DNA from: Aquisalimonas lutea
Lineage (GTDB): Bacteria > Pseudomonadota > Gammaproteobacteria > Nitrococcales > Aquisalimonadaceae
NCBI RefSeq assembly: GCF_030409225.1
Contig: NZ_JAUFPK010000001.1
Span: 1,772,733-1,836,732 of the forward strand
Length of the DNA stretch: 64,000 nt
Direction of reading: 5' to 3'
In this document: in pieces, positions 52,828 to 56,258 of the stretch
Layout of the letters: the number at the start of each line of letters is the position of its first letter
How positions within the stretch are numbered: the stretch's first letter is position 1
Notes under the pieces: generated by a model
Told to the model about the DNA's origin: nothing
Database searches by the model: none
Seen by the model: the letters and a program-made list of their open reading frames with translations, nothing else
Program-made: the position numbers and the translations under genes

Positions 52828-53859
52828 TCAGCCGTGGCGGGCGGTGGTCAGGGGCGTCTTGGCAGGGGCGCCGGCATCCTCGCGCATGAGCTGCGGTACC
52901 AGGTACCCGGGCAGTCGCGCCGCCAGGGCCGCCGCCAGCTCTCTTGCCTCGTCCTCCGGGACGAGGAAGTGCGTGGCGCCGGCGACCCGGTCCAGCTGGT
53001 GCAGGTAGTAGGGCAGCACGCCCAGGGTGAACAGCCGCTCGCTGAGCTCGCTCTGCGCGTCTGCCGTGTCGTTGATGCCGCGCAGCAGCACCGCCTGGTT
53101 CAGGAGCTGGACGCCGGCCTCGCGCAGGCGCCGGCAGGCGCTCGCGACCTCGCCGTCCAGCTCGTTGGCGTGGTTGGCATGGAGCACCATCACGGGCTGC
53201 AGGCGGGTGCCCGCCAGCCATGCGAGCAATTCGTCGTCGACCCGCTCCGGCAGGACCACCGGCAGCCGCGAATGGACCCGCAGGCGCACCAGGTGCGGAA
53301 TGGCCGCCAGCTCTCCCGCCAGCGGTCCCAGGCGTCGGTCCGGCAGCGTCAGCGGGTCGCCGCCGCTGAGAATGACCTCCCTGAGCCCGCTCTGGTGGCG
53401 CAGGTAGGCGAGGGCCGGCTGCCACGCGTCGCGGGCGGCATGGGCGTCGCCGTAGGGAAAGTGCCGGCGGAAGCAGTAGCGGCAGTTGATGGCGCACGCC
53501 CCCGTGGCGACCAGCAGGGCACGCCCGTGGTACTTGTGCAGCACGCCCGGGGCCTGCTGGGCGGCGAGATCCCCCACCGGATCGGCCCCGAAGTCCGGGG
53601 CCTCGGTCTGCTCGGCGGCCAGGGGGAGTACCTGCCGCAGCAGGGGGTCGTTCGGGTCGCCCGGGCGCATGCGGCGGACGAAGCCCCGCGGCACGCGCAC
53701 CGGGAAGTCCCGGTGCCCGGCCTCGGCCGCGGGCAGCAGGCCCGGGTCCAGCGCCAGCGCCTCCAGGAGCTCGGCGGGGCGCCGGAAGCCCCGGGCCAGC
53801 TCGGTCTGCCAGGCGGGAGGCGTGACGGGTTCGCGGGCGGTTGCGGACATGGGCGTCAT
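52828..53859 (-). CDS. epmB: EF-P beta-lysylation protein EpmB
   Basis: 343 residues, radical-SAM enzyme of the lysine 2,3-aminomutase family. The cluster motif CAINCRYCFRRHFPYGD supplies Cys at about 122, 126 and 129; GGDPLTLPDRRLGPL and LRVHSRLPVVLPERV are family blocks. The length is that of EpmB rather than of the longer KamA catabolic enzyme. It turns alpha-lysine into beta-lysine for EF-P. Divergent from efp, with epmA downstream of efp, so the whole modification set is here. A second ATG is 9 bases in. Confidence 0.93.
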   Translation of the reverse strand: MTPMSATAREPVTPPAWQTELARGFRRPAELLEALALDPGLLPAAEAGHRDFPVRVPRGFVRRMRPGDPNDPLLRQVLPLAAEQTEAPDFGADPVGDLAAQQAPGVLHKYHGRALLVATGACAINCRYCFRRHFPYGDAHAARDAWQPALAYLRHQSGLREVILSGGDPLTLPDRRLGPLAGELAAIPHLVRLRVHSRLPVVLPERVDDELLAWLAGTRLQPVMVLHANHANELDGEVASACRRLREAGVQLLNQAVLLRGINDTADAQSELSERLFTLGVLPYYLHQLDRVAGATHFLVPEDEARELAAALAARLPGYLVPQLMREDAGAPAKTPLTTARHG

Positions 53860-53936
53860 TGTAACGTGCTCGCGGCGACCACAGGGGCGTGTATTCGCGG
53901 CAATTTTTCGTTAGCATTCGGCCGTTTCCCCGGCAA

Positions 53937-54201
53937 GGGAAACGCTGAACAATTCGCGCGCGCCTCTGGCCGAGCAGCGCGAGCGCAGACAAGGCGCGTT
54001 GCGCCGCGCTGTACTGGCGGTACAGTCAAGCAACGCAACGCCGGCTGCGCTCGCGCTGCTCGGCCCCGAAGGGCGCTCCACGGCGGCGTTGTGGTCTGCG
54101 TTGGCATTCTTGTAAAGGGCGACGCCATTCACGGCGAATGCCGCCTTGCCACAACGCCGCTGTGGAGCGCAGAGGCACGCGGGAATTGTTCAGCGTTTCC
54201 C
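53937..54201. mobile_element. 265-bp MITE-like element with nested hairpins, between epmB and efp
   Basis: Terminal inverted repeats of 32 bp with 30 matches; the outer 19 bases are exact, GGGAAACGCTGAACAATTC (53937-53955) against its complement (54183-54201). Inside are a perfect 20-bp pair (53969-53988 with 54045-54064) and a 22-bp pair with one mismatch (54073-54094 with 54149-54170). So it can fold as a closed stem with two arms. No transposase is present. Compact size, long termini and intergenic position fit a non-autonomous transposable element. No target duplication beyond AA is evident. Confidence 0.75.
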
Positions 54202-54245
54202 AAGATCCGGACCACCGAACCCACGCACAGTCCAGCGGAGTCTCC

Positions 54246-54815
54246 ATGGCGACGTATACGACCAACCAGTTCAAGGGCGGGCTCAAGCTCATGCTCGACG
54301 GTGAACCCTACAGCATCGTCGAGAACGAGTTCGTCAAGCCCGGCAAGGGCCAGGCGTTCAACCGGGTCAAGCTGCGCAACCTGAAGACAGGCAAGGTATT
54401 GGATCGCACCTTCAAGTCCGGGGAGTCCGTGGAGGCCGCCGACGTGCTGGAGACCGAGCTCCAGTATCTGTTCAACGACGGCGAGCACTGGTACTTCATG
54501 GACACCGAGACCTTCGACCAGGTCGCCGCCGGCAAGGCCGCCATGGGCGGTGCCGAGAAGTGGATCAAGGAGCAGGATATCTGCAACGTGACCCTCTGGA
54601 ACGGCGAGCCCCTGCAGGTGGATCCGCCGTCGTTCGTGGAGCTGCAGGTCACCCAGACGGACCCCGGCGTGCGCGGCGATACCAGCAGCGGCGGCAGCAA
54701 GCCCGCCACCGTGGAGACGGGGGCCGTGGTCCGTGTGCCGCTGTTCCTGGAGGAGGGCGAGGTCATCAAGATCGACACCCGCAAGGGCGAGTACGTGGGG
54801 CGGGTGAAGGACTGA
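54246..54815 (+). CDS. efp: Elongation factor P
   Basis: 189 residues. [42 protein letters not shown] places the modified lysine at K34 in PGKGQ. Three beta-barrel domains end with [20 protein letters not shown] relieves stalling at polyproline, and K34 is the target of EpmA/EpmB encoded on either side. GGAG at 54237-54240 precedes ATG 54246. The repeat element ends 45 bases upstream, so the efp promoter must lie within or right beside it. Confidence 0.96.
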
Positions 54816-54853: not shown

Positions 54854-55038
54854 CCCGCCGTAGGAGCGACGTAAGTCGCGACCTTCCAGGAGAGCCCGAT
54901 GCCCTGAAAAGTCGCGGCTGAAGCCGCTCCTACACGGCTTCGGTACAGCCTGCTGCAGAATGCTGTGGGAGCGGCTTCAGCCGCGACCGTTGCAGAGAAC
55001 AAGGTTCTCTGGAATGTCCCGACTGTCGTCGCTCCCAC
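54854..55038. repeat. REP block, left arm of an inverted pair around epmA
   Basis: Four REP units: GTAGGAGCGACGTAAGTCGC type on plus (54854-54881), GCGGCTGAAGCCGC type on minus (54911-54934) and on plus (54964-54987), and a worn first-type unit on minus (55021-55038). Spacers such as TTGCAGAGAAC and AGGTTCTCTGG are also repeated. The whole block is a close inverted copy of 56073-56258 on the other side of epmA. Confidence 0.85.
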
Positions 55039-55062
55039 GCGATTCTCCAAGAGGGTTCGGTC

Positions 55063-56072: not shown

Positions 56073-56258
56073 GCCGTAGGAGCGACGTAAGTCGCGACGT
56101 GCCAGAGAACCTTATTCTCTGCAACGGTCGCGGCTGAAGCCGCTCCCACAGCACTCTGCAGCGGGCTTTACCGAAGCCGTGTAGGAGCGGCTTTAGCCGC
56201 GACTTTCCAGGGCATCCGGTTCTCTGGAAGGTCGCGACTTATGTCGCTCCTACGGCGG
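56073..56258. repeat. REP block, right arm of an inverted pair around epmA
   Basis: Four REP units in the order plus, minus, plus, minus (56073-56098, 56127-56150, 56180-56203, 56231-56258). Reverse-complemented, the block aligns with 54854-55038 nearly end to end with scattered differences, including the spacer CACGGCTTCGGTA between the middle units. It fills most of the 252-base gap between epmA and spoVR. Confidence 0.85.

Follow-up and report, generated by a model that had tools for sequence, protein, structure and literature searches.

The divergent gap between epmB and efp in the 64,000-nucleotide stretch of Aquisalimonas lutea DNA analysed here (the window) contains a set of long, nested inverted repeats, which raises the question of whether this sequence is a mobile insertion or a conserved efp leader, and of what keeps its folded structure intact. 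The initial annotation had described a 265-bp non-coding element of the miniature inverted-repeat transposable element (MITE) type.

The element and its insertion site between epmB and efp

Repeat searches recovered all the inverted repeats that had been annotated, comprising a terminal pair of 32 nt (53937-53968/54170-54201; 94% complementary, 30/32) and two inner pairs of 21 nt (53968-53988/54045-54065; 100%) and 22 nt (54073-54094/54149-54170; 95%). The exact 19-base termini were also confirmed, as the 19-mer GGGAAACGCTGAACAATTC occurs at both ends with 0 mismatches and had no further match in the window when 3 or fewer mismatches were allowed (0.02 expected). The annotated ends at 53937 and 54201 were one base too far out on each side: the repeats do extend there, but the outermost base belongs to a CAAG target duplication, so that the element, whose limits were set by comparison with other copies, is 263 and not 265 bp long (Table 1). 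Its plan consists of a 30-bp outer stem with the terminal repeats, two arms of ~98 nt and a small hairpin between them. The prediction of a structured RNA was borne out by folding, where 285 nt reached -207.2 kcal/mol in comparison to -129.3 for shuffled sequences (sd 4.67; z -16.68; 0/200 shuffles equal), and the reported lack of coding content also stood, the longest frames through the element being unconvincing six-frame ORFs. With 263 bp, no transposase of its own, terminal inverted repeats and a target duplication, the element has the defining features of a MITE.

Table 1. Features of the epmB-efp region, in window coordinates.
Feature	Coordinates	Strand	Basis
epmB, 343 aa, divergent neighbour	52828..53859	-	
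Promoter-like box TTTTTCGTTAGCATTC, conserved upstream of efp (function inferred)	53904..53919	+	gap alignment with 4 congeners
Target duplication CAAG, left copy	53934..53937		comparison of copies
Whole element, 263 bp	53938-54200	+	comparison with other copies
Outer stem, left strand, with terminal repeat GGAAACGCTGAACAATTC	53938..53967	+	repeat search, fold
Arm 1	53968..54065	+	fold branch 31-128 of element
Arm 1 core motif, same strand as efp reading	53990..54039	+	pattern search
Inter-arm stretch, part of small CCCGAAGGG hairpin	54066..54072	+	fold
Arm 2	54073..54170	+	fold branch 136-233 of element
Arm 2 core motif, opposite strand	54100..54148	-	pattern search
Outer stem, right strand, terminal repeat inverted	54171..54200	+	repeat search, fold
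Target duplication CAAG, right copy	54201..54204		comparison of copies
efp, 189 aa	54246..54815	+	

The epmB-efp gap measured 386 bp in the window in comparison to about 142 (G002), 144 (G001), 178 (G003) and 169 bp (G004) in congeners, and the element was absent from the gap in 4/4 congeners read. Once the element was removed in script, the flanks aligned with the congener gaps, and a box, TTTTTCGTTAGCATT, common to all of them lay upstream of the insertion. In the window the TAGCAT of this box ends 20 nt before the element, from which we infer that the efp promoter is located at the conserved box and that the element lies in the leader; the efp mRNA would probably carry the element structure at its 5' start. 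Of the two roles that had been suggested for the element, reshaping of the efp 5' UTR is favoured by the upstream position of the box, while supply of a promoter appears less likely, as a consensus scan of both strands of 53830-54260 showed no sigma-70-like promoter. The same scan also misses the box itself and so neither supports nor excludes an efp promoter there. The annotated distance to efp was correct, the element ending 45 bases before the ATG, and neither these 45 bases nor the ribosome-binding region belong to the element.

In another genus, too, the gap between epmB and efp was seen to hold a 268-bp element (locus L134 in genome G011, 1126-1393) with the same plan and different arm sequences, lying about 15 nt past the TTAGGAT box of its own gap. 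This looks like an independent insertion, since the gap is short in G005 and G008, both belonging to the genus of L134. The corresponding gap of G012 holds one MITE-like end.

Dispersed copies and a probable IS5-family partner

Searches of the same genome (4.20 Mb, 16 contigs) for other copies gave 72 BLAST matches at E <= 0.001, and the 19-base terminus had 53 matches at <=3 mismatches in comparison to 0 for the reversed pattern. Copies paired by script fell into size classes of about 260-265, 192-193, 167-171 and 56 bp. The duplications were mostly YTAR-like (CTAG, TTAA, TTAG), with CAAG and CTTG also present. A match was found in 24 of 144 genomes of relatives. Several of them hold full-size copies, including G002, G038, G045 (where copies are partly decayed) and G131, and one congener has a 56-bp copy. 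Plasmids gave no match for the element or for one 50-nt arm core. Rather than keeping to the same place in all relatives with no other copies, the sequence is dispersed and its site is empty in congeners. Taken together, the copies, the 4-bp duplications and the 4/4 empty sites show, at the level of sequence comparison, an insertion into the predicted efp leader after the lineage split from its congeners. The proposal of a non-autonomous mobile element held on these grounds and on an 18-bp end found on IS5-family elements, and it is near certain that a MITE stands in front of efp.

Several features of other copies were recorded along the way. In six G038 loci (L192, L196, L200, L222, L223, L224) the element core sits inside a larger ~452-bp repeat with its own outer inverted repeats, the core being flipped relative to the flanks in 3/6. 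At four copies in the window's genome, G000 (L003, L005, L006, L015), the end of a predicted gene coincides, by coordinates, with the edge of the element, and the TAG or TAA of the duplication is the stop codon of that gene. Predicted genes were interrupted by elements in 0/17 cases, according to a simple gene finder that also missed efp.

A search for a full-length transposon with the same ends had been proposed, and it gave a match for one end only, on IS5-family elements elsewhere, with none found in this genome. The exact 18-bp end was located in 88 stretches, and among the 80 of these that were read there were 5 IS-sized end pairs (1188-1260 bp), accepted with a duplication matching at least 3 of 4 bases. 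Their carriers are Salinicola salarius, Gallionella, Hydrogenophilales, Rhodocyclaceae and a Bacillota MAG. Each of the five matches the 18-bp end of the element at one terminus but not at the other. The transposases of two of them scored 307.5 and 348.4 bits against the IS5 model NF033581 (cut-off 140) and carry DUF772 and DDE_Tnp_1 domains. Congener G002 possesses an IS of 1202 bp in four copies, which encodes a transposase of 340 aa and has related ends and flanking YTAR duplications; this IS, the one compared in its interior, had no interior sequence in common with the element, only terminal and chance-level matches, indicating that the element is not a simple internal deletion of it.

Within the window's genome a transposase query gave no match, and the IS5-family model identified a broken relic (G000:C1:1316717-1317671) in two pieces, one with an internal stop, of which the first exceeds the NF033581 cut-off; matching paired ends are absent from it. 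An autonomous partner with these ends was not found in this draft of 16 contigs, where a copy may have been missed. For the terminus TGTACTGCGTCACTC of G136, no IS with two such ends was present in the 14 stretches read. Movement in trans by an IS5-family transposase is the best explanation of the matching ends. In Allochromatium palmeri, the same terminus recurs at a distance of 127-144 bases from the ends of ten contigs (L263, L273, L278, L282, L304, L307, L321, L325, L331, L334), a pattern that would fit breaks in the assembly at a multi-copy IS with that end.

The arm motif and the fixed plan under unrelated termini

The description of nested hairpins was right as to the two inner hairpins, which are real, but it had missed the strand-specific motif that they have in common and that is found in many bacteria. 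Both window arms carry, on opposite strands, CAAGGCG-helix-CGCNG-hairpin-CAAG-helix-CAAC. Among folded arms placed in one orientation, of which 83 of 90 passed a score filter (75 distinct), the core runs from CAAGGCG and a variable helix through CGCNG, an apical hairpin and CAAG to the helix partner and CAACGCNG. Stem register varies by one base among arms, and the G after CAACGCN was invariant in one arm alignment though it lies outside the search pattern (CAAGGCG-N5-CGCNG-N12..26-CAAG-N5-CAAC).

Of the 369 genomes sampled within the class, 55 contained this pattern, with up to 42 copies in one (reversed control, 3 matches), as did 24 of the 398 sampled within the phylum (reversed control, 2 matches). 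Some single matches, such as those of G132, G593 and G734, whose helices are poor, are probably due to chance. In the window the pattern is confined to the efp element, once per strand. Viral contigs gave 75 stretches matching the pattern, many with chance-like lengths and settings. An arm motif was also seen at 5278 of L275, a Gammaproteobacteria MAG record reached via the terminus scan.

Each core lies about 52 nt from its own end of the element, and the two are antiparallel, so that either strand bears one. One locus per genome was read in 30 genomes. Elements were delimited there by requiring a YTAR-like 4-mer duplication and a terminal repeat, a condition that partly imposes the kind of duplication found. 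An element was obtained at 16 of the 30 loci, 11 of these being 260-266 bp long. Under mutually unrelated termini (TGTACTGCGTCACTC, TGCTCTATCAA, TACTCCAACAAGG, TGTCCTGTCACAC, GGAAACTCTGCACG and others), the core started at nt 52-54 in 14/16 and the fold was that of the window element in 11/16, with an outer stem closing at nt 24-30 and branches at about 31-128 and 136-233; the rest were three short one-arm forms and two that folded otherwise. A motif-independent check used 18 elements picked by termini alone from G136 and G259, where the strict motif was present in 13/18, a loose motif in two and none in three. All ten elements of 263-265 bp in this set had the strict motif, at nt 52-53, and the end pairs of G136 were 263-266 bp apart in 15/22 cases. 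Judged by sequence and fold, the 263-bp element belongs to a large superfamily built on one fixed plan. Its hairpin arms retain a common folded motif in bacteria that are only distantly related, even though the majority of paired bases differ.

A known RNA family was rejected as a candidate, with nothing at curated Rfam 15 scores: up to E 1 the window stretch gave 7 hits, none of them near its gathering score (best mir-9261, 24.4 of 86 bits), and 12 loci gave a single sub-threshold hit outside the element. Within the collection of papers covered, literature searches, including searches by the letters of the motif and termini, found no description of the element, and this widespread group of about 263-base elements apparently has no name.

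Probable selection on the folded strand and its interpretation

Covariation was examined in 28 of 37 full-size elements, excluding the truncated L005, L186 and L191, the near-duplicates L196, L200, L223 and L224, and the divergent L134 and L068. RNAalifold returned 89 pairs, 59 of them with a double change. Paired cells amounted to 94.0% in comparison to 81.1% in shuffles, and double-change cells to 298 in comparison to 80.4, values that 0/500 shuffles reached in either case. Differences between close copies were mostly single changes and those between more distant copies double changes; L001 and L008, for example, are separated by 4 single and 11 double changes, where 2.35 doubles are expected for independent sides.

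Unselected mutation should give G-U and A-C mismatches equally, and an excess of G-U was consequently read as selection on a folded single strand; in all counts that follow, arm cells are not independent and kinship is ignored. Read on the motif strand, 28 arms taken from 27 of the 30 loci (L364, L367 and L369 failed filters) gave, over their 14 proximal pairs, 338 Watson-Crick, 35 G-U, 0 A-C and 19 other, and 61 arms from the window's genome and relatives gave 767, 45, 8 and 34, respectively. Over a shorter span of pairs, G-U:A-C was 32:1 and 37:7. The inner helix, in 87 strings from 32 genomes, gave 358 Watson-Crick, 45 G-U, 5 A-C and 27 other, with a Watson-Crick fraction of 0.823 in comparison to 0.466 with partners shuffled, while the local inner helix alone had a G-U:A-C ratio of only 5:2. 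The excess follows the motif in both arms, at 18:6 for the + strand and 11:4 for the - strand in the local set and 18:0 and 5:0 in the wide set. Terminal repeats showed no consistent G-U excess (14:55 local, 16:10 wide), nor was there an excess when the terminal and proximal stems were read on the + strand of the element with arm 2 unturned (G-U 43, A-C 37). A reading in which the palindrome is conserved at the DNA level alone, based on that unturned count, is superseded by the counts on the motif strand. A folded single strand, either RNA or ssDNA, thus seems to be what selection acts on, which we regard as a strong inference from these sequences, and the arms are likely under strand-specific structural selection.

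The whole reading that we favour, with some reserve, is that of an IS5-moved MITE in the efp leader whose superfamily arm is kept as a folded single strand, probably RNA. Mobilised in trans by an IS5-family transposase into the efp leader, the element would be transcribed within the host message, here that of efp, and one arm would fold in the sense direction. That arm could make the insertion tolerable, for instance by influencing how the RNA is processed or how transcription proceeds across the insert, a role that we put forward as a doubtful guess. More tentative than the reading as a whole, and somewhat better placed than this guess, is the proposal that the conserved 263-nt two-arm unit with its two antiparallel hairpins (RNA or ssDNA) represents a new mobile structured class across Pseudomonadota, with termini swapped to use different transposases. 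Bacterial MITEs are usually regarded as decayed insertion sequences without working parts. In this element the plan of the interior is conserved to the nucleotide, with compensating stems and conserved unpaired bases, under unrelated termini and in distant families, and such conservation resembles that of working RNAs or DNA hairpins. If this is true, a large share of Pseudomonadota intergenic repeats would bear a conserved device and hundreds of host transcripts would bear an arm.

That the folded strand is RNA rather than ssDNA is our guess, held with a modest preference. The arm could instead be a folded ssDNA signal, for example in transposition or replication, where one core per strand would let either exposed strand fold, as the cores on opposite strands would allow. 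DNA hairpins tolerate G-T better than A-C, in keeping with the mismatch counts, and the stem lengths of about 30 and 21 bp may be taken as near whole B-DNA turns. Double-stranded DNA, however, is what IS5-type transposases move, and no ssDNA-acting partner came up, although the search for one was not systematic; we consider this alternative unlikely.

Still less probable is an ordinary MITE without selected function, the palindromes of which are kept perfect by mutation alone as polymerase template switching copies arm from arm. Template switching between inverted-repeat arms has been reported to yield inverted spacers and arm homogenization (PMC8604942), and the arm spacer is inverted in L006 (arm 1) and L013 (arm 2), indicating that arm correction does happen. 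This mechanism would also suit one pair that appears as A-T, G-C and G-T in copies 95-97% alike, the covariation of the terminal repeats as well as the arms, and the mainly single changes between close copies. It predicts no strand preference, however, whereas G-U exceeded A-C on the motif strand of both arms, and it does not account for the conserved unpaired bases or for the constancy of position (52 nt) and size (263 bp) in elements whose termini are unrelated; the G045 copies, moreover, decay without correction. An immobile efp leader or ncRNA at its ancestral place, which the strong and covarying structure might suggest, was rejected as having negligible probability, given the empty congener gaps and the many other copies with duplications.

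Among known systems, the closest are IS5-family MITEs (partner NF033581), which the element resembles in being <500 bp long without a transposase, in its terminal inverted repeats and 4-bp YTAR-like duplication, and in having the exact terminus that full IS5 elements carry at one end. It differs in that its interior has no more than chance-level stretches in common with the G002 IS, and in a core that elements bearing other termini also possess. An integron attC site consists of paired GTTRRRY/RYYYAAC boxes, and none in that arrangement were seen by eye in the arms. Correia elements (CREE/NEMIS) of Neisseria have a TA duplication. As is proposed for the present element, they are intergenic MITEs that end up in transcripts (PMC10969869), and RNase III has been reported to cut messages at these repeats (PMC10969869; PMC2649163); compared by description only, they differ in that the portions consulted mention no two-arm plan or common arm motif. 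QMITEs of Coxiella burnetii are likewise structured MITEs, said to yield small RNAs, and differ, again by partial description, in duplication length and in having a single core (PMC10969869). The same source presents MITEs as IS derivatives with stable stem-loop transcripts (PMC10969869).

REPs and REPINs are also mobile palindromic repeats, and REPs differ from the element in being 20-40 bp long and tied to tyrosine transposases. REPs and REPINs are not known to make a duplication of the YTAR kind. Two clusters of GTAGGAGC...GCGAC palindromes that resemble GTAG-type REPs are present in the window itself, at 54860-55039 and 56076-56254, where they flank an epmA-like gene; over 150 nt the two clusters are 91% complementary.
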